A stretch of 64,000 nucleotides of DNA, taken from contig NZ_JTHE03000023.1 of the NCBI RefSeq assembly GCF_000817775.3, positions 1-64,000 of the forward strand, written 5' to 3'. Below, piece by piece: positions 2,265 to 16,797 of this stretch. Each line of letters opens with the position of its first letter. Position 1 is the first letter of the stretch. This DNA comes from Lyngbya confervoides BDU141951 (GTDB lineage Bacteria > Cyanobacteriota > Cyanobacteriia > Thermosynechococcales > Thermosynechococcaceae). The notes under the pieces are model-generated. The model saw only the letters and a program-made list of their open reading frames with translations. It had not been told where the DNA came from and made no database searches. The translations under genes and the position numbers were made by a program.

Positions 2265-3064
2265 CCGTAGTAGGTCCGCAACAAATGATAGAGGTCTCGC
2301 TGTTGGCGAAACAGCTGCTGGGGCTTTTCAAAGAAGGCTTCCGTGGCCACCGCAAAGAATTCTGCGGGACTGCTGGCGCCATAGGGGTCTAAAACCGTAG
2401 GTCGTCCCCGCTGCACGTCGGCGCACAGCTGTCGATAGGCGCGGGTCATCACGGTGGCCCAGGCCGAATAGGCCTCTGACTGGGCCAATCGGGGCACCCC
2501 TTCGGTAGGCCCCTCCGCCTGATCCAGCTGGTGGGCAAACTCATGTAGAACCACGTTACGCCCATCCTGCCATTGCCCCAGATCGCGCTGCACCTGATCC
2601 CAGGCCAAAACCAACTGATCGCGGGACCAGGACTCTCCCAGGCGAACCTCCTGGCGCTCCTCCACCATGCCTCCCCCCACCGGCAAGCGATGCCTGACCC
2701 GGTAGGCCGTGGGATAAAGCAAAATTGTCTTGAGCTGGGGAAAATAGCGATGGTTCTGGGAAAAGAGCAGCAGAGCCGCGATGGCCAGGATCTGGATTTT
2801 CATCTCTAGCGTCACCACCAGGCCATTGCAGCCAATAAACTGCTTTTCCGCCAACAGAACCTGGATGGATTCCTGGATCTGCCCCTGAAGATCGGCGGGG
2901 ATTTGGTCATAGAAGGGAATGGTGGCGCGCACCGTGGCCAGCCACTGCGCGGGAAAGGGGCTGGCTCGGAGGCGACGACGGCGCCAGTTTTTCCAAACCG
3001 GGTAGCCAAAAATCACTCCCAGGCTCACGCCCATCACCGTCAACACAACCAGCAGGGCGGTCAT
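2246..3064 (-). CDS. M90 family zinc peptidase, MtfA-like
   Basis: 272 residues, membrane-anchored by an N-terminal hydrophobic segment (about residues 2-22). It has the zinc-binding HEFAH at about residues 174-178 and the downstream DQAEG segment typical of MtfA (DUF980, peptidase family M90). In E. coli MtfA responds to the Mlc regulator and links to the glucose phosphotransferase system; cyanobacteria lack that context, so here only a metallopeptidase role is inferred. Its ATG overlaps the stop of the upstream acetyltransferase gene by four bases (ATGA), indicating translational coupling in a two-gene operon. The 3' end falls in a 14-bp triplicate repeat. Confidence 0.88.
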   Translation of the reverse strand: MTALLVVLTVMGVSLGVIFGYPVWKNWRRRRLRASPFPAQWLATVRATIPFYDQIPADLQGQIQESIQVLLAEKQFIGCNGLVVTLEMKIQILAIAALLLFSQNHRYFPQLKTILLYPTAYRVRHRLPVGGGMVEERQEVRLGESWSRDQLVLAWDQVQRDLGQWQDGRNVVLHEFAHQLDQAEGPTEGVPRLAQSEAYSAWATVMTRAYRQLCADVQRGRPTVLDPYGASSPAEFFAVATEAFFEKPQQLFRQQRDLYHLLRTYYGLDRLA

Positions 3065-3513
3065 GGTGAAGTATCGGAGACGAGATGGAGAGACATGGCC
3101 TGGTGTTCCAGACCGGCTTCGTGAAAAATTTCGCCGACCGGATGAAATCCCAGGCGATCATAGAAGGGCACTGTGGGAGATTGGGCATGCAGGACAATCT
3201 CTACATAGCCCTGCTGCCGCCCATAGGCGATCGCCGTGTAAACCAGCTCACTGCCAATCCCCTGCTGGCGATAGTCCGGCAGCACCGCCAGCCGCTCTAG
3301 CTTCAGGCGCCTCGGGCCAATTTCGCGCAAACGAGCCACGCCCACGGGTTGCCGATCCAGGGAGGCCAGCACATGAACTGCCTCAGAATCCTTGCCGTCC
3401 CAGTCTAGGGCGGGGTCAATGCCCTGCTCTTGGCCAAAAACGCGATGGCGGATCCCAGAAATGCTTTGGGCTTCAGCGACAAACAAACAAGTTTTAATGG
3501 TCAAGGAAGCCAT
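3061..3513 (-). CDS. GNAT family N-acetyltransferase
   Basis: 150 residues covering one complete GNAT domain. Motif A is visible as LERLAVLPDYRQQGIGSELV, the acetyl-CoA pyrophosphate-binding loop (RxxGxG-type), followed by the C-terminal VPFYDRLGFHPVGE motif common to ElaA/YjcF-type acetyltransferases. It would transfer an acetyl group from acetyl-CoA to an amine; the substrate is unknown. It is the first gene of a pair with the M90 peptidase, which it overlaps by 4 bases. The pairing is compact but does not by itself explain the function. Confidence 0.88.
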   Translation of the reverse strand: MASLTIKTCLFVAEAQSISGIRHRVFGQEQGIDPALDWDGKDSEAVHVLASLDRQPVGVARLREIGPRRLKLERLAVLPDYRQQGIGSELVYTAIAYGRQQGYVEIVLHAQSPTVPFYDRLGFHPVGEIFHEAGLEHQAMSLHLVSDTSP

Positions 3514-3940
3514 AATCAGACAACTAAGGAGGCGGGAATCAGGGATTTGCAGGAGGTAACGTCAACGGACAGCTTTTTTCGGACAGCCTCCCGGAAACTA
3601 CATAGCCGTCTCCCTCAACGTTATCCCCAGCTTGCACAACCCCCAATCTGTAATATAGGCGAGCCTTCCCTCTGCTGCCAGGCCTCACCTAGACTGCAAT
3701 GAGTTCGCAAATCTCATCCCGAGCCCCTGGGCAGAAGCTGCGATCTCGATTTTTATTTGGCTAATTTTAAATACTGCTCTTTTCAAAGGTGGAAATTAAG
3801 CGGGCGAGATGATCCTTTTCTGAATGAATTGGGCAACCTGGCAACATAATTTACCAGTTTTGTCATAGATTGGGCGGCTTTTATTGTTTCTAAATAATAT
3901 TAGCCTTTCTTCCTATGAATTAATTGCCATGGAGGGGAAA
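3514..3940. other. AT-rich intergenic region upstream of the decarboxylase fusion
   Basis: About 430 bases between divergent genes. No open reading frame of interest was found. The segment from about 3755 to 3930 is noticeably richer in A+T than the surrounding DNA, as expected for a promoter region, but no clear -10/-35 pair could be fixed by eye. Confidence 0.5.
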
Positions 3941-5686
3941 ATGACGCATCAAGTATTAAAGGGAAACCTAAAAGTTTTAGACCGAACTCTTCCCTCCCGT
4001 TCTCAAGGGACTGCCTGGTACCAACAGCTTGATATCCAGGCCATTGCTCACCGATATTCAACCCCGCTTTACATCACCAATCAGGCGCGGATTGTTCAAA
4101 ATCTTAGGGCCTATCAGGATCTATTGGGCGAGACTAAAAATGTCTACTTTCCGGTCAAGGTCAATCCTTGCTTAGCCACCTTCAAGCTGCTAGCCAAGCT
4201 GGGATGTAGTGCAGATTGTGCTTCCCGTCGCGAGGTTCAACTTGCGCGACTCGCTGGTGTGCCGGAGACTCAATTAAGTTACTATTCCCCGGCCCTGGAT
4301 CTGAACTTGGCGATCACGTTACTGAGCAACGGGGGCAGTGTGGTCATTGATTCCCCTTCAGCCCTGAGGGCGTTATCAGACCACCTAGAGGGCAAGGACT
4401 TTCCCGGAAAGCTGTTGCTGCGCGTGAATCCTCCCCTCTATCACAGCTACCGCGGAACAGCCGACTATCAAAAACACACCGCCCACGGACATGAGTCCAG
4501 TCAATTTGGTCTCCCTAGCGAAGAGGTCATTCCCTTTCTCAATTCAACAACGCTTCCCTTTTCCGGACTTCACATCCATGTGGGCACCCAAATGGACAAC
4601 GTTGAGGTTTTTCAAGAAAGTTTGGAGGCGCTGCATGAGCTGTGCGATGTCATCCATGCCATTACCCCTCACAGGATTGTCGAGCTGAATTTAGGGGGAG
4701 GATTAGGCGTTGCGGCCCACGCAGGCGAACGGTTTCCCCTGATCTCTGACTTGGCGAAGGCTCTACAGGACCGATTCCGGCCAGAACTCACCTATAAAAT
4801 GGAGCCAGGCAACGCCCTGTTCGGAGATGCCACGGTGCTGTTGACCCAGGTCATGACTCGTAAATCGTCTCGCGGTAAAGGCTGGGCCATTGTTAATGTT
4901 GGCACCGATCAGCTGTTGAAAGTGACCCTGGCTGGATTTGCCCAGGAGATTCTGCGCGCTGACGGCACCCCCCTGCCCAGAAGCGGCATGGACAGTATTG
5001 CTGGCCCCCTGTGCTTTGCGGGGGATATTCTTCTCCCTGAAACGGACCTCAGCGGGATAGAAGAAGGCGATGTCCTGCTCCTGCCTAAGGTGGGGGCCTA
5101 TTGTCGGTCAATTGGCAACCGTTTCAACGGCCAGACCGAACCCGCCATGCTGATGGTGGATGAGGACCAGGAACTAGGATTGGTGTATGGGCCGGAAGAC
5201 CCCTATTGGCAGCCGGTGATCCAAAGCTTTCAGCCAGCTGCCCTGGAGGAATTGCCGGGGGAGGCAAAGCCCTTTACCCCAGAACAATTTAATCAACTCC
5301 GTAGCGTCTATCTCCATCAGGAATGCAGCCAGGACCGCTATACCTTTCATGAGTGCATCAGAGTTGCCCCAGGTCAGTATGAAATGAGTATTGAAGTCCA
5401 CTCCTCCGTGGCGTTCATTTCGGCCCCCACCGTCATGAGAATCATTTCTGATGCTGCCGTAGCTGTGATTATCGATAGCTTGGGATGCGAAGAGAAGACC
5501 ATTTCGGTCTGGGGCAGTCGCTTTAACGTCTCTCTCAAGAGTCTTTTGCGGTCAAAGCGACGACATCGCCTCCGCATTCATCTCACAGAGAGAACGCAAT
5601 CCCCCCACTCTAAAAACCAAGAACTCATTGCCTACTGGCAACTGGGAGAGGGGGCCGGGTCTGGCAATATTCTGGCTCTGGTCTAA
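3941..5686 (+). CDS. PLP fold-III decarboxylase (LysA-like) fused to an FcoT-like hot-dog domain
   Basis: 581 residues from ATG 3941, chosen because GGAGGGG (3931-3937) sits just upstream; an ATG at 3929 and a TTG at 3884 lack a ribosome site. Residues 1-430 are an alanine-racemase-fold, diaminopimelate-decarboxylase-like enzyme: PLP lysine K73 in FPVKVNP, HIHVGTQ (211-217), GGG (252-254), GAYC with C388. Two substrate-side motifs differ from true LysA: EPGR is EPGN (288-291), and the usual C-E-S-x-D motif is GPLCFAGD (355-362). Residues about 450-581 resemble the FcoT-like thioesterase hot-dog of mycobacterial Rv0098, with a matching GSRF segment and an ending YWQLGEGAGSGNI. Inference: decarboxylation of an unusual amino acid coupled to an acyl-thioester step. 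No biosynthetic cluster is adjacent. Confidence 0.8.
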   Translation: MTHQVLKGNLKVLDRTLPSRSQGTAWYQQLDIQAIAHRYSTPLYITNQARIVQNLRAYQDLLGETKNVYFPVKVNPCLATFKLLAKLGCSADCASRREVQLARLAGVPETQLSYYSPALDLNLAITLLSNGGSVVIDSPSALRALSDHLEGKDFPGKLLLRVNPPLYHSYRGTADYQKHTAHGHESSQFGLPSEEVIPFLNSTTLPFSGLHIHVGTQMDNVEVFQESLEALHELCDVIHAITPHRIVELNLGGGLGVAAHAGERFPLISDLAKALQDRFRPELTYKMEPGNALFGDATVLLTQVMTRKSSRGKGWAIVNVGTDQLLKVTLAGFAQEILRADGTPLPRSGMDSIAGPLCFAGDILLPETDLSGIEEGDVLLLPKVGAYCRSIGNRFNGQTEPAMLMVDEDQELGLVYGPEDPYWQPVIQSFQPAALEELPGEAKPFTPEQFNQLRSVYLHQECSQDRYTFHECIRVAPGQYEMSIEVHSSVAFISAPTVMRIISDAAVAVIIDSLGCEEKTISVWGSRFNVSLKSLLRSKRRHRLRIHLTERTQSPHSKNQELIAYWQLGEGAGSGNILALV

Positions 5687-6250: not shown

Positions 6251-7111
6251 TTAGATTTCTGGAAGCATCCAGGCAAACTGTCCCACTCCCCACTTGAAGT
6301 ATAGGCCAAAGGCACCGAGCCAGAAGAGGCTAAACCCAGCGATCGCCAGGTAATCGGCTAAGGTCATCACCGACTCGTGTAAATAGGTGCGATCGGAGCT
6401 ACCGGAGAAGGCCTTGGATTGAAGCACCACCTCCAGCTTTTGGGATTTAGATAGGGCGCCCAGAATCAGCGGCACGGCAATAGTGGCATAGACCCTCGCG
6501 CGGCGGACGGGCCCCATTTCCTCCAGAGCCAGTCCGCGTAGGCGCTGCGCCTGGATAATGGACTGTAGCTCATCAAATAAAAGCGGGAAAAAGCGCAGGG
6601 TTGAGGAAAAAATAAACACAATCTTGTAGGGAATCTTCAACTGCACCAGGGAGAGGATCATATTGTTGATATCCGTGGTGAAGACTCCCAGGGGCAGCAC
6701 TAAAATCATCGTCAAGGTTTTAAACGTCAGATTTAAACCATAGAGCGTGCCTTCCAGGGTTAAGCTAGATCCCCCCACCCCAGGCCAGGCAGAGGGCAGC
6801 GTCAACAGGGGCGTCAAGGTGGCGTGACCGGTGAGAGCCTTCACCTGCGTGACGTTAAAAAAGCCCATGCCTAACAGTAAAAGCAAATAAAGGGGCATGA
6901 GGACCTTCAAGATGGTGGCCAGATAGGTCCAGCGTACGCCCGCCAGCAAACAGGCTAGCAAAACCCCCAGCATGAGTCCGCCCCCCAGGAGGGGGCTTTC
7001 CCAGAGAAAGGCAACCCCAGTCAGGGTCACCATCATGGCGAGTTTGGTGCGAAAATCCCAGCGCGTGAAAATTGACTCACGGCTGACCGTTTGCCATTGA
7101 ACCTGTCCCAT
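6251..7111 (-). CDS. ECF transporter transmembrane protein EcfT (CbiQ-like)
   Basis: 286 residues with several hydrophobic segments and the cytoplasmic coupling region of EcfT proteins: AQRLRGLALEEMGPVRR near residue 190 and a second coupling helix around LQSKAFSGS. EcfT joins the ATPases to the substrate-binding S protein and transmits the conformational change. The second coupling motif departs from the common A-R-G form, carrying S-K-A instead. Its start overlaps the stop of the ATPase gene (position 7111), so the three genes S, A-A' and T form one operon read leftward. The substrate is not evident. Confidence 0.9.
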   Translation of the reverse strand: MGQVQWQTVSRESIFTRWDFRTKLAMMVTLTGVAFLWESPLLGGGLMLGVLLACLLAGVRWTYLATILKVLMPLYLLLLLGMGFFNVTQVKALTGHATLTPLLTLPSAWPGVGGSSLTLEGTLYGLNLTFKTLTMILVLPLGVFTTDINNMILSLVQLKIPYKIVFIFSSTLRFFPLLFDELQSIIQAQRLRGLALEEMGPVRRARVYATIAVPLILGALSKSQKLEVVLQSKAFSGSSDRTYLHESVMTLADYLAIAGFSLFWLGAFGLYFKWGVGQFAWMLPEI

Positions 7112-8847
7112 TAAACGATATCCTGAGTCATTGCCATTTTGGTCAAGCAGTCCGCCAACTCCCCAGGGGTGAGCAGGGGGTAATTGTGCCCCACGATTTT
7201 ACTCAGATGCTGGGCCAGCAGCACCGTCTGCGGGGGGGTTAGATAGGTGGCCGCCAACTGATCCGTCTGATGATAGGCAGAGCGCAGGGGAGCATCGAGC
7301 AGCAGGGTGCCTTTGCCCATTACGATGGCCCGTTCAGCATAACCCGGCATCAAATGCAGGTGATGGGTAATCACCATCAGGGTTTTTCCCATGCGGTGCA
7401 GTCGCTGACTCACCTCAAGAATTTCCCGAGATCCACGATAGTCCTGACCGACGGTGGGTTCATCTAGAATAATCACCTCGGGGTTCATCGCCAGAATGGC
7501 TGCAATGACAATCCGAGCGCGATCGCCCTTTGGCAACGATAGGGGATGGGCCTGACGCAAATCCATCAGGTCCATGGCCTCTAGGGCCGCCCCGGCCTTT
7601 TCCTGAATCTCCGTGTCCCCATAGCCCAGGTTTTTCAGGGCAAAGGTCACCTCCCGCTCAACCGTGGTGTTAAAAATCTGGTTGTCGGGGTTTTGGGCCA
7701 CATAGCCAATGCGCCGGGCCAGTTCGCTCACGGTGTAGTCCGTGCTTTTGCGCCCCTCGATCCACACCGTTCCTTGAGTGGGCTGGAGCAGATTCAGAAA
7801 ATGCTTCACCAAGGTGCTTTTCCCGGCCCCATTCTGACCGACCACCAGCACGTATTCTCCGGCATGAATATCCAGGGAAAGATCGCGCAGCGCCTGGGTG
7901 CCGTCTGCGTAGGTATGGCTGAGTCCTTGTACCGACAGCAGCGGCAAGGCGCCAGGGGCGTGCGGCAAGCCGGGAAGGGGGAACTCGGCAGGGGTGGCCT
8001 GCTGAATCAGGGGGGTCATGGCTTGTTTTCCCGCGTCCAGGGTAACCGGAATCGGATGGACAGCAAGGCCCTTGGCGTTCAGTTGCTCAAACACCTGGGC
8101 CACCTGAGGCGCGCGCAGATCGTGCTGCCACAGGAGTTCCGGTTGACTGTAAATTTGGGCAGGGGTGCCCGTGGCCACTAATTCCCCGCCCGAGAGCAGG
8201 GCAATGCGATCGCAATATTGCGCCATCTCCTCCGCCGCGTGGCTCACCATGACAATGGTCATACCCAGATCCTGATTTAGGGCCTTCACGGTGGCAAAGA
8301 CTTCTTGGGTTCCCACCGGGTCGAGTTGGGAGGTTGGCTCATCCAAAATGAGCAGGCGTGGACGCAGTGCCAGGGCAGCAGCGATCGCTAGGCGCTGTTG
8401 TTGTCCCCCCGATAAATCCTGGGGATGCTTTTGCTCAGTTCCCTCCAGGCGCACGGCAGCCAATACCTGGGGAATGCGGGCCCGAATCTCCGCTGGAGGC
8501 ACCTTCAAATTCTCCAGGGCAAAGGCAATTTCGTTTTCCACGGAGGTGGCCGTTAGCTGGGTGGCAGGATCTTCGAACACGGCTCCCACCCTCTGGGCCA
8601 GGGTGCTAACCGGATGGGTTAAGGTATCTAGGCCCGCTACGGTGACATAGCCAAAAAATCGGCCCCCGAAAAACTGCGGCACAATGCCATTCAGCGCCAG
8701 GCAAAGGGTGGTCTTTCCCGCCCCGGTTGGCCCAATCAAGCCAAAAAATTCTCCAGACTCCAGGGTCAAGGAGATGTCGCGTAAGGCCAGCCTTTGGGTT
8801 CCCGGATACAGGTAGGACACCTTATGAAAGGTTGCCAGTGAATCCAT
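7111..8847 (-). CDS. ECF transporter ATPase, two nucleotide-binding domains fused
   Basis: 578 residues containing two ABC ATPase domains in one chain. Domain 1 has Walker A GPTGAGKTT, signature LSGGQQQR, Walker B LLILDEPTSQLD and a switch His in VSHAAEE. Domain 2 has Walker A GQNGAGKST, Walker B VIILDEPTVGQD and ITHHLHLM, but its signature is LSLPKGDRAR instead of LSGGQ. One of the two composite ATP sites may therefore work differently or be weak. It powers uptake through the adjacent EcfT and S components. It starts 2 bases after the S-component stop and overlaps ecfT by one base, so the three are one operon. Confidence 0.93.
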   Translation of the reverse strand: MDSLATFHKVSYLYPGTQRLALRDISLTLESGEFFGLIGPTGAGKTTLCLALNGIVPQFFGGRFFGYVTVAGLDTLTHPVSTLAQRVGAVFEDPATQLTATSVENEIAFALENLKVPPAEIRARIPQVLAAVRLEGTEQKHPQDLSGGQQQRLAIAAALALRPRLLILDEPTSQLDPVGTQEVFATVKALNQDLGMTIVMVSHAAEEMAQYCDRIALLSGGELVATGTPAQIYSQPELLWQHDLRAPQVAQVFEQLNAKGLAVHPIPVTLDAGKQAMTPLIQQATPAEFPLPGLPHAPGALPLLSVQGLSHTYADGTQALRDLSLDIHAGEYVLVVGQNGAGKSTLVKHFLNLLQPTQGTVWIEGRKSTDYTVSELARRIGYVAQNPDNQIFNTTVEREVTFALKNLGYGDTEIQEKAGAALEAMDLMDLRQAHPLSLPKGDRARIVIAAILAMNPEVIILDEPTVGQDYRGSREILEVSQRLHRMGKTLMVITHHLHLMPGYAERAIVMGKGTLLLDAPLRSAYHQTDQLAATYLTPPQTVLLAQHLSKIVGHNYPLLTPGELADCLTKMAMTQDIV

Positions 8848-8849
8848 AC

Positions 8850-9644
8850 TTAGTAGATCGCCTCCCTGGGTTTCACCAGGTCAATGGCTCGCAGGCCAGC
8901 AATGACCCCAGTTCCGATGACCGTTCCCGCAACGCAGCGGATTAAATTTTCCAGGGGCATCACCGGAATGAGCCCCAACCAAACCTTCTGAGGCCAGTTA
9001 AAGATAAAGTAGGACACCGAAAGCTGGGCTAAATGACCCAGCCCAGAGGCCATCCAGGTGCCCAGAAACAGCCCTAAGGCAACCTGACGGATCTGGGGAC
9101 TGCCAATCCAGCGACCGCACAGTTGGCGAGTGGGTAAGATAAACAGCAGCAGCGCTGACCCGTCTACAAAGGCGCCTAAACAGATAACTGGCCATTCCAC
9201 ACCGTTGAGCAGGACGGCCCGACTGATGTAGGCCCCCAGAGCTAGCAGTTCTACCCCGCTGATGCCCACCCACCAAAACCGACGCGAGGCCTGGGCCGGA
9301 CGCATGGCACCGGCTGCGAAGCTGGCGATCGCCGCCCCGGCCACCGAAATGGCCGGAATCCCGGCGGTATAGGGCGCAAGAAAGACTCCCACCAGGCTGC
9401 CAATGGTGCTGGCAAGGGCTCCGGCAATGGGGCCTAAGATCCATCCCAATAGCGGAAAAACGCTGCTGCTGAGGGGAATGCCCCCGCCAGAGGCGCCCAC
9501 CACAAAGGAAAAGGGAATAAAGGCTAGGGCGGTGATGACGGCAGCCAGGACAACCACGTAGGCAATGGGAGATCCGTCAAGGGCGGCGCTGCCGAGATAC
9601 TGCACCTGACGCTCTTCGGCGTCGGGCGGAAGGTTTAAAGTCAT
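8850..9644 (-). CDS. ECF transporter substrate-binding (S) component-like membrane protein
   Basis: 264 residues with about six hydrophobic segments and small-residue-rich loops (VVGASGGGIPLSSSVFPLLGW, GPIAGALASTIGSLVG). By position it is the S component of the ECF operon: first gene, followed by the fused ATPase and EcfT. S components bind a vitamin or metal in the membrane. The sequence shows none of the classical signatures that would let me name thiamin, biotin, cobalamin or nickel. No cobalamin-riboswitch core was found in the leader. Start ATG 9644 is the first Met and leaves a leader of about 22 bases after the palindrome at 9666-9689. Confidence 0.8.
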   Translation of the reverse strand: MTLNLPPDAEERQVQYLGSAALDGSPIAYVVVLAAVITALAFIPFSFVVGASGGGIPLSSSVFPLLGWILGPIAGALASTIGSLVGVFLAPYTAGIPAISVAGAAIASFAAGAMRPAQASRRFWWVGISGVELLALGAYISRAVLLNGVEWPVICLGAFVDGSALLLFILPTRQLCGRWIGSPQIRQVALGLFLGTWMASGLGHLAQLSVSYFIFNWPQKVWLGLIPVMPLENLIRCVAGTVIGTGVIAGLRAIDLVKPREAIY

Positions 9645-14034: not shown

Positions 14035-16797
14035 ATGAGTGTGGCAAGCAAAATAATTCTTGGCCTTTGTATCGTTTTGTTCATCGGTATTCCGGCTGGA
14101 GGTGCCCTAATCCACCTGCTCACCGAAAGCTGGTGGTTTGAAGCCCTGGGGTACAGCTCGGTGTATTGGACCACGCTCACCTGGCAGGGAATTTTAGGAC
14201 TGATCACCTTTACGCTCTACGTCACGGTCTTGGGGGTTCACTATGGACTGGCCCACCGGCTCACCCGCGATCGCCCCTATCAGTTTTTTGCCTACAGCGA
14301 GCTGCAGCCCTACTCACAATCCCTGGTCCGCAGCATTAGCCTGCTGATCATTGGGTTTGTGGCTCTGGTGGCTGCCAATAACAGCAGTAGCGCCTGGACC
14401 CGTGCGCCAGAGTTTCTCCAGGGACAGTCCTTCCACCAAACCGACCCTATCTTTAATCGCGATCTCGGGTTTTACCTGTTTCAGCTGCCCTTCCTAGAGT
14501 TGCTGCGCCAAATTTTCTTAATGCTGGCGACCTGGTCTTTGGTGCTAATTTTCTCCATTTACAGCCTGAAGGGCATCTTCACGGAGGCCAACCGTCTCTT
14601 CGAGCCCTCTTCCCTGGAACGCGGCATTAAAATCCACCTGGGCTTGGCGATCGCGGCGCTGATTCTCTTGTTAGGTTGGGGATTTTGGCTGGGGCAGTAT
14701 CATTTGCTCACCCGGCAAAGTGGGGTGGTCTTTGGGATCGGATTTACGGACTATCATGCCAGACTATTAAGCCATCGCCTGATGAGCATGGTCACGGTGG
14801 GGGTGGCGATGGCGGTCTTGGTTTCCCTGTGGCGGCGCGGGCTAAGGCCCATCATCATTGCCCTGACCCTCTTTGGCCTCGCCTTTGTCTCCTTAGAGGG
14901 GATTTATCCCTGGCTTGTGCAGTCCTTGATCGTCAGGCCCAATGAACTGGCCAAGGAAAAGCCGTTTCTGGCGCACAACATTCGCTACACCCAGGCGGCC
15001 TATCACCTGGAACAGGTGCAGAATGAAAAATATGACGTCCAGGCAGGGCTGACCCTGGATAAGCTCCAGGAGAATCAGACCACCCTGGAGAACGTCAGGC
15101 TCTGGGACTATCAGCCCCTGCTCAAAACCTATCGGCAGCTGCAAGAAATTCGATCCTACTACCGATTCCAGGATGTCGATGTGGATCGGTATCGCCTCCA
15201 GGGACAACTGCGGGCCGTCATGCTTTCCGCCCGTGAGCTAGACCTTTCCCAACTCCCTAGCCAAGCCCAAACCTGGGTCAACCAGCAGTTAAAATATACC
15301 CACGGCCACGGCCTGGTCATGAGCCCGGTGAACCAGGTCTCCACCGAAGGACTGCCCGAATTTTATATTCAAAACATTCCTCCCCAGAGCCGACTTGCGC
15401 CCCAGGTGGAGAATCCTGATATCTACTATGGCGAACTCACTCAATCGCCAATTTTTACCGGGACCACCACCGATGAATTTGACTATCCCCAGGGCAGTGG
15501 GAATGTGTTCAATCGCTATGATGGTCTGGGTGGCGTTCCCCTTGACAGCCTCGGACGAAGGCTGGCCTATGCCCTCGACCTGAGCCATCTGCAGCTGCTC
15601 ATCTCCGATTATTTCAATTCCCAAACCCGCATTCACTACGACCGACAGGTTCGGCAACGGGTGCAGCACATCGCGCCTTTCCTGCGCTACGACAGCGATC
15701 CCTACCTGGCGATCATCGACGGCAAGCTGAACTGGATTATCGATGCCTACACCACCAGCGATCGCTACCCCTACGCAGAACCCATCAACCCCCAAATCAA
15801 TGGGAATGATCGACCCGCTTCCCTCCATCGGTTAACCCAAGGCAACATCAACTACATTCGCAACGCCGTTAAAGTTGTGGTGGATGCCTACGATGGCACT
15901 GTTCTTTTTTATGTCATCGATCCCAGCGACCCGATTGTGCAAACCTATCAAAGGATTTTTCCCAATCTGTTTCGCGCCCCCACCACCATTCCAGACAGTC
16001 TGCGGCGTCATTTTCGCTACCCCGAGGATCTGTTTCGGATCCAAACCAGTCTTTTCCTGAACTACCACATGAGCGATCCCGAGGTTTTCTACAATCGGGA
16101 AGACCTGTGGCAGCTGCCCACACAGGTCTATGAAGATCAAGCGATTGTCATGGAGCCCTACTACGTCATCATGCGGCTTCCAGGGGCAACAGAGCCAGAA
16201 TTCATCCTGATTCAACCCCTAACGCCGAATCAAAAGGACAACATGATTGCCTGGATGGCTGCACGGACCGACGGCGAACAGTACGGCAAGATTATTCTGT
16301 TTAATTTTCCTAAACAGAGTCTGGTGTTTGGTCCTCGCCAAATTGAGGCTCGCATTGATCAAGACCCCACGATTTCGCAGCAGCTTACCCTCTGGAGTCA
16401 GTCTGGGTCCAAGGTCATTCGCGGCAATTTAATCATTTTCCCCATTGAGCGATCGCTGCTGTACGTTGAGCCCATTTACCTGCGCGCAGAACAGGCCGAG
16501 CTTCCCCAACTCAAGCGAGTCATTGTCGCCTACGACCAATCCATCGTGATGGCAGAAACCTTTGCTGAGGCGCTAACCCAGATTTTTGGCGAGGAAAAAA
16601 CAGCGACTCCCCCCCCCTCCGAAGATTCCGTCTCCTCTGCCTCCCCCCTGTTTGATCAGCTCGCTCAACAGGCTTTGGAAACCCATCAACAGGCCGACGC
16701 TGCTGCCCGCGCAGGGCAGTGGTCTCGCTTTGGCCAGCTGCAGCAGCGCCTGCGTGATATCTTGCAACGCCTGAATCAGAGCCCCCCATCCAGGTGA
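14035..16797 (+). CDS. UPF0182 family membrane protein
   Basis: 920 residues from ATG 14035, preceded by GAGGCAGG; a GTG at 14008 would add nine residues. The N-terminal third has seven hydrophobic segments (for example ILGLCIVLFIGIPAGGALI, IHLGLAIAALILLLGWGFW and PIIIALTLFGLAFVSLEGI). A large soluble domain follows with the usual UPF0182 landmarks: YVEPIYLRAEQ near the C-terminus, PQLKRVIVAY and the PLTPNQKDNMIAW segment. The tail is Pro/Ser/Gln-rich and ends in a short helix. The family is widespread in cyanobacteria and actinobacteria and its function is unknown. It is monocistronic. Confidence 0.95.
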   Translation: MSVASKIILGLCIVLFIGIPAGGALIHLLTESWWFEALGYSSVYWTTLTWQGILGLITFTLYVTVLGVHYGLAHRLTRDRPYQFFAYSELQPYSQSLVRSISLLIIGFVALVAANNSSSAWTRAPEFLQGQSFHQTDPIFNRDLGFYLFQLPFLELLRQIFLMLATWSLVLIFSIYSLKGIFTEANRLFEPSSLERGIKIHLGLAIAALILLLGWGFWLGQYHLLTRQSGVVFGIGFTDYHARLLSHRLMSMVTVGVAMAVLVSLWRRGLRPIIIALTLFGLAFVSLEGIYPWLVQSLIVRPNELAKEKPFLAHNIRYTQAAYHLEQVQNEKYDVQAGLTLDKLQENQTTLENVRLWDYQPLLKTYRQLQEIRSYYRFQDVDVDRYRLQGQLRAVMLSARELDLSQLPSQAQTWVNQQLKYTHGHGLVMSPVNQVSTEGLPEFYIQNIPPQSRLAPQVENPDIYYGELTQSPIFTGTTTDEFDYPQGSGNVFNRYDGLGGVPLDSLGRRLAYALDLSHLQLLISDYFNSQTRIHYDRQVRQRVQHIAPFLRYDSDPYLAIIDGKLNWIIDAYTTSDRYPYAEPINPQINGNDRPASLHRLTQGNINYIRNAVKVVVDAYDGTVLFYVIDPSDPIVQTYQRIFPNLFRAPTTIPDSLRRHFRYPEDLFRIQTSLFLNYHMSDPEVFYNREDLWQLPTQVYEDQAIVMEPYYVIMRLPGATEPEFILIQPLTPNQKDNMIAWMAARTDGEQYGKIILFNFPKQSLVFGPRQIEARIDQDPTISQQLTLWSQSGSKVIRGNLIIFPIERSLLYVEPIYLRAEQAELPQLKRVIVAYDQSIVMAETFAEALTQIFGEEKTATPPPSEDSVSSASPLFDQLAQQALETHQQADAAARAGQWSRFGQLQQRLRDILQRLNQSPPSR

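Follow-up and report, generated by a model that had tools for sequence, protein, structure and literature searches.

A fold-III amino-acid decarboxylase fused to a thioesterase-type hot-dog domain in Lyngbya confervoides, and its linkage to a histidine kinase and cyclic di-GMP regulator in four other cyanobacterial genomes

Introduction

Fold-III decarboxylases dependent on PLP and hot-dog proteins of the FcoT type are each known already. In the diaminopimelate (DAP) decarboxylase of T. maritima, the distal carboxylate of the substrate is bound by Arg249 and Arg285 and the distal amino group by Glu315; replacement of Glu315 by Phe or Leu admits D-Phe, and E315F mutants accept hydrophobic D-amino acids (PMC8277567). 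BtrK decarboxylates glutamyl-ACP (PMC7857480) and VinO acts on 3-methylaspartyl-ACP (PMC11284099), and carrier-bound substrates therefore have precedent for fold-III decarboxylases. Among signaling systems, rpfF is convergent with rpfGHC (the RpfCG kinase and c-di-GMP regulator) or with rpfR, which encodes a PAS-GGDEF-EAL sensor (PMC4504480), while in the cqs and lqs systems a PLP synthase is paired with a kinase (CqsA/CqsS) (PMC3376566). A limited literature search, aimed at the separate parts, yielded no description of a fold-III decarboxylase and an FcoT-type hot dog in one chain.

A gene of this architecture was analyzed in Lyngbya confervoides BDU141951, within the first 64,000 nucleotides of contig NZ_JTHE03000023.1 (hereafter the window). 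The gene is a rare one, in which an atypical amino-acid decarboxylase is indeed joined to a hot-dog domain of the thioesterase type. We give an even chance to the reading that its product is a bifunctional decarboxylase/acyl-thioester enzyme producing a small amino-derived metabolite, the product or its use being tied, in the larger of two clades (clade 1), to a histidine kinase and a cyclic di-GMP regulator.

Architecture and surroundings of the fusion gene

The gene was uninterrupted from the ATG at 3941 to the stop at 5686 (581 codons), confirming the decarboxylase/C-domain fusion which an earlier note on this DNA had read in one open frame. All of the motifs listed in that note were located in the protein (K73, HIHVGTQ, GGG at 252-254, EPGN at 288-291, GPLCFAGD at 355-362 and GAYC at 385-388), and the C-terminal end was confirmed in translation as YWQLGEGAGSGNI. 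Coordinates are compiled in Table 1.

Table 1. Features of the fusion gene in the window and location of the convergent kinase and regulator genes in other genomes
Feature	Position	Strand	Basis or remark
GGAGG ribosome-binding-like site	3931..3935	+	5 nt before ATG 3941; sequence
Decarboxylase-hot-dog fusion gene	3941..5686	+	single open frame, 581 aa, stop included; fused orthologs in six other genomes
PLP fold-III decarboxylase part, residues 21-432	4001..5236	+	PF02784, PF00278, TIGR01048 below cut-off; PDB DAP decarboxylases to 2e-33
K73, PLP Schiff-base lysine	4157..4159	+	LysA alignment, invariant
EPGN 288-291 (DAP decarboxylase: EPGR; clade 2: EPGH)	4802..4813	+	
K327, replaces second distal-carboxylate Arg (T. 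maritima R285)	4919..4921	+	alignment; roles from PMC8277567
GPLCFAGD 355-362, F359 replaces substrate Glu of CExxD	5003..5026	+	invariant in both clades
Hot-dog domain, residues 447-581	5279..5683	+	AlphaFold2 pLDDT 78, pTM 0.77; top Foldseek matches SAV606 and Rv0098
Central hot-dog helix, residues 495-514, invariant R500, S503, D504	5423..5482	+	AlphaFold2 model; alignment A6
Terminal strand motif YWQLGEGAGSGNILAL	5633..5680	+	partly common to Rv0098/SAV606
Kinase + regulator convergent with fusion	L035:10031-13881, L034:4651-8498, L041:3675-7525, L042:4396-8248		four genomes

No biosynthetic neighbors of the fusion gene were present within the window, in line with the earlier note, and no carrier protein, ligase or thioester supply genes were read beside it in the window or in related loci. 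A small GNAT acetyltransferase gene (3061-3513, minus strand) is divergent from the fusion gene, its product having a weaker match to the FeeM N-acyl amino acid synthase (7e-9); none of the other loci read had it next to the fusion. On the minus strand, 6251-9644 encodes a transport protein of the CbiQ kind together with a double ABC ATPase and a membrane protein that had no Pfam match, a set suggestive of an ECF-type transporter for a vitamin or metal.

The C-terminal hot-dog domain

The last 135 residues had no match in Pfam or NCBIfam, singly or as a set of five sequences, and no PDB chain was matched by the domain in profile searches. The PF10862 (FcoT-like thioesterase) model gave no match to the domain up to E 10; a search of the relatives and one actinobacterial plasmid with the same model gave zero matches anywhere, controls included, and is therefore uninformative. 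According to an AlphaFold2 model derived from an alignment of seven sequences (A6; pLDDT 78.3, pTM 0.77), the domain consists of a helix, two strands, a 20-residue helix and four strands, the order of a hot dog, so that the structure prediction proposed in the earlier note bore out the fold. A model of the full-length protein from three sequences was poor (pLDDT 47) and was not relied on. The best solved Foldseek neighbors were SAV606 with its Michael product (4.4e-5, TMq 0.70) and then Rv0098/FcoT (3.6e-4), followed by FabZ (TMq up to 0.66) and 4-hydroxybenzoyl-CoA thioesterases; the hot-dog regulator FapR was also among the matches, and one PaaI-like hot dog was matched in a viral fold library. 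The top rank of SAV606/FcoT for the modeled domain is suggestive, not decisive, since FabZ scores close behind.

The resemblance to Rv0098 was examined with PDB 2pfc, which agreed letter for letter with a stretch of Rv0098, and a terminal motif ([FYH]W[DQ]xxxGxxxGxxxLA) was partly common to the C-domain, Rv0098 and SAV606. The profile-profile comparison of the domain with these two proteins was of weak significance (hhalign P 0.034, a score reached by 2 of 200 column shuffles), and the residues shared by Rv0098 and SAV606 (TGHxN, NQ, WxxDD..HQL and FRxPxNP) were not found in the domain upon sequence comparison. The FcoT-like character claimed for the C-domain therefore holds for the fold and one terminal motif; by sequence it is not a member of the family.

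The domain has its own signature, ISxPxxxRIxSDA in the central helix and KxxSVWGxR in the next strand, invariant between both clades. In hot-dog thioesterases such as 4HBT, a catalytic acid is located on the central helix. D504 is at mid-position of this helix in the AlphaFold2 model and 4HBT E73 mutants were among the structural matches; the conserved D504 points to a hot-dog domain that may be catalytic. The main rival is a non-catalytic hot dog, which would dimerize the protein or bind a regulatory acyl-CoA or acyl-ACP while the decarboxylase uses a free, probably hydrophobic amino acid. The absence of the SAV606/FcoT motifs, the presence of FapR among the structural matches and the greater variability of the C-domain (28% identity between the clades vs 44% for the N-domain) are consistent with this rival, but the polar residues R500, S503, D504 and R527, located in the central helix and the strand after it and invariant in two clades, resemble an active site, and a hot dog without catalysis is considered possible, if improbable on the whole.

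A further alternative is that an amine made by the decarboxylase is added by the hot dog to an enoyl thioester, giving an N-alkyl beta-amino acid by an aza-Michael reaction like that of SAV606/CmiS1. Such chemistry is known for SAV606/CmiS1 (PMC11284099), the best structural match is SAV606 with its Michael product, and decarboxylation first would yield the free amine nucleophile. With TGHxN, NQ and the insert WxxDD..HQL missing from the domain, and with no oxygenase, ligase or ACP neighbors, this route is regarded as quite unlikely. The reverse order, with PLP decarboxylation coming after SAV606 chemistry, was rejected, as the SAV606-type product is a secondary amine, unable to form the PLP aldimine; decarboxylation would thus precede any N-alkylation, or the hot dog would act only on the thioester.

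The decarboxylase domain and its altered substrate site

The N-terminal part matched PF02784 (3e-28) and PF00278 (3e-11) and, together with the PLP lysine, GGG, EPG, Cys and GAY, has the features of a fold-III PLP decarboxylase; residues of the PLP site retained in the alignment were K73, H213, GGG, E288-P-G, C358, D362 and GAY. The TIGR01048 (lysA) score of 215.3 bits vs a curated cut-off of 297.9 does not reach the threshold for membership among DAP decarboxylases. Furthermore, none of the three residues that read the distal end of diaminopimelate is kept, Arg249, Arg285 and Glu315 of the T. maritima enzyme being aligned to N291, K327 and F359. A separate canonical lysA with EPGR and CESGD, a gene the earlier note had suggested looking for, was found elsewhere in the genome, and a 22-row tree separated the fusion proteins, as a single clade (100/100), from cyanobacterial LysA.

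As judged from these alignments, the fusion is not the housekeeping DAP decarboxylase, a reading already thought unlikely in the earlier note and rejected here because the distal residues are all changed and a separate lysA is present. A second decarboxylase for DAP (or a basic amino acid), its C-terminal extension being incidental, would agree with the top sequence matches, which are DAP decarboxylases, but is very unlikely in view of the sub-cut-off score, the three changed distal residues, the canonical lysA and the separate clade. The distal-site changes speak against DAP and basic amino acids as substrates and favor a distal group that is hydrophobic or neutral, hydrophobic rather than basic side chains being indicated by the E to F change at position 359 together with the published E to F mutants. 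Basic amino acids, which had been put forward as first substrates, are doubtful, as the Glu that reads the distal amino group is Phe here (PMC8277567).

Proposed reaction

In the bifunctional reading, the fold-III domain would decarboxylate a free or thioester-bound amino acid whose distal end differs from that of diaminopimelate, its side chain most likely being hydrophobic, neutral or linked as a thioester. The hot-dog domain would act on the acyl-thioester part, by hydrolysis or by elimination or addition next to the thioester, and a small amine or amino-acyl compound would be released by one dimeric protein. The substrate of the hot dog is presumably a thioester, and both domains probably serve one pathway; by analogy with BtrK and VinO, the substrate may be an amino acid tethered to an acyl thioester. 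Support for this reading comes from the retained PLP residues, the changed distal residues, the proximity of the hot-dog model to SAV606/FcoT, the invariant RIxSDA and KxxSVWGxR, the separate lysA and the kinase found in clade-1 carriers and in no other genome searched. The missing SAV606/FcoT motifs, the near equality of FabZ and SAV606 in Foldseek, the failure to find an ACP, ligase or thioester supply gene next to the fusion and the greater variability of the C-domain weigh against it. If bifunctional, the protein would represent a compact enzyme decarboxylating and releasing a thioester-linked or hydrophobic amino acid.

Distribution and evolution of the fusion

A survey of carriers and their neighbors, as proposed in the earlier note, revealed the full-length fusion in seven cyanobacterial genomes of two clades, always in a single frame; the neighbors were a kinase and a regulator in four genomes and proS, which the gene adjoins, in clade 2. 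Clade 1 comprises the genome of the window, MS004, SU_2_1, Tildeniella torsiva and Nodosilinea sp. LEGE 07298, with fusions 65-68% identical to the window's protein, and clade 2 comprises G278 and G597 (39% identity). Three clear fusion matches came from a draw of 386 genomes across the phylum, and no fusion was found in the viral contigs and plasmids searched. In SU_2_1, a low-coverage MAG, frame breaks occur in the fusion, kinase and regulator (L042:4396-10399), reflecting decay or assembly error.

The joining of two genes by chance or during assembly would agree with the non-conserved linker at about residues 433-446. It is excluded by the full-length fused orthologs in six other genomes and by purifying selection on both domains (dN/dS 0.034/0.223 and 0.041/0.183, Nodosilinea vs MS004), and is dismissed as exceedingly improbable; the fusion recurs in several assemblies, among them that of the isolate Nodosilinea sp. 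LEGE 07298, and the 386 and 391 genomes searched yielded no stand-alone C-domain.

Association with a sensor kinase and cyclic di-GMP regulator

In MS004, SU_2_1, Tildeniella and Nodosilinea, the fusion gene is convergent with a gene for a GAF-HisKA-HATPase histidine kinase, which likely forms an operon with that for a REC-PAS-GGDEF-EAL regulator; in the Nodosilinea isolate the fusion, kinase and regulator genes were observed side by side. A kinase ortholog was found in 5/5 clade-1 carriers and 0/57 other genomes (55 non-carriers and both clade-2 genomes, 62 genomes in total), a count that ignores kinship, includes four linked cases among the five and uses a threshold (E below 1e-100) chosen after inspection. 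In the window's genome, both partners are found on contigs other than that of the fusion, at 52% identity for the kinase and 61% for the regulator, and this unlinked case is the one physically independent data point for co-occurrence. Among the genomes searched for the regulator, it was present in 3/3 carriers and 2/54 other relatives. The enzyme does not strictly need the kinase, since clade 2 is without it. The earlier description of the enzyme as self-contained is not sustained, given the adjoining kinase and regulator in four other genomes and the co-occurrence of the kinase even where unlinked.

In MS004 (L041:736-1395, 7927-9139) and Nodosilinea (L035:5381-7036, 14921-16167), transposase genes lie on either side of the three genes, a hint of mobility. 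Diflavin-flavoprotein genes occur within a few kb of the regulator in the genome of the window, MS004 and the non-carrier G007 (L073:17-8453, L041:5417-13870, L074:3506-9228), suggesting that the regulator, at least, may have been inherited without moving. The flanking transposases raised the idea of a purely mobile cassette of three genes, which was not adopted in view of this arrangement.

The linkage in four genomes is newly seen and constitutes an unexpected signaling association. In clade 1, the product of the bifunctional enzyme or its use would be coupled to the GAF histidine kinase and the REC-PAS-GGDEF-EAL cyclic di-GMP regulator, and the product may be what is sensed. The enzyme may make a small regulatory molecule, a signal role being plausible but unproven. 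If the kinase and regulator read the product, they would form with the enzyme a cyanobacterial synthase-sensor pair of a new chemical class. By analogy with known systems, the fusion might even be the synthase of an undescribed amino-derived cyanobacterial signal, read by the GAF kinase and converted by the regulator to cyclic di-GMP changes, a proposal we consider speculative and rather unlikely.

Comparison with known systems

The fusion resembles LysA (TIGR01048) in fold, PLP lysine, HxHxG, GGG, EPG, C-x-x-x-D and GAY, but differs in the distal residues (Asn/Lys/Phe for Arg/Arg/Glu), the extra hot-dog domain, the sub-cut-off score and its distinct clade. With BtrK and VinO it shares the alanine-racemase-fold clade and the loss of the Glu of CExxD (GPLCTPED at the same place in BtrK); BtrK, however, retains the Arg (ESGR), both are without a hot-dog domain, and both work with a dedicated carrier and ligase, neither of which was seen near the fusion. 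SAV606, CmiS1 and FcoT (Rv0098) of PF10862 provide the best structural matches and a partly common terminal strand motif, whereas the fusion C-domain is without a Pfam match and without TGHxN, NQ, WxxDD..HQL and FRxPxNP, and is joined to a decarboxylase.

The Rpf/DSF and Cqs/Lqs systems are similar in gene layout, as in four genomes the fusion adjoins a kinase and c-di-GMP regulator, which in the window's genome are unlinked to it. Their synthases are a crotonase and an aminotransferase-like PLP enzyme, in contrast to a fold-III PLP enzyme with a hot dog, and the partner of the fusion is a GAF kinase without an evident membrane segment. If the signal reading is true, the fusion and its partners would parallel Rpf/DSF and Cqs/Lqs by convergence, with a decarboxylase and a hot-dog domain as building blocks.
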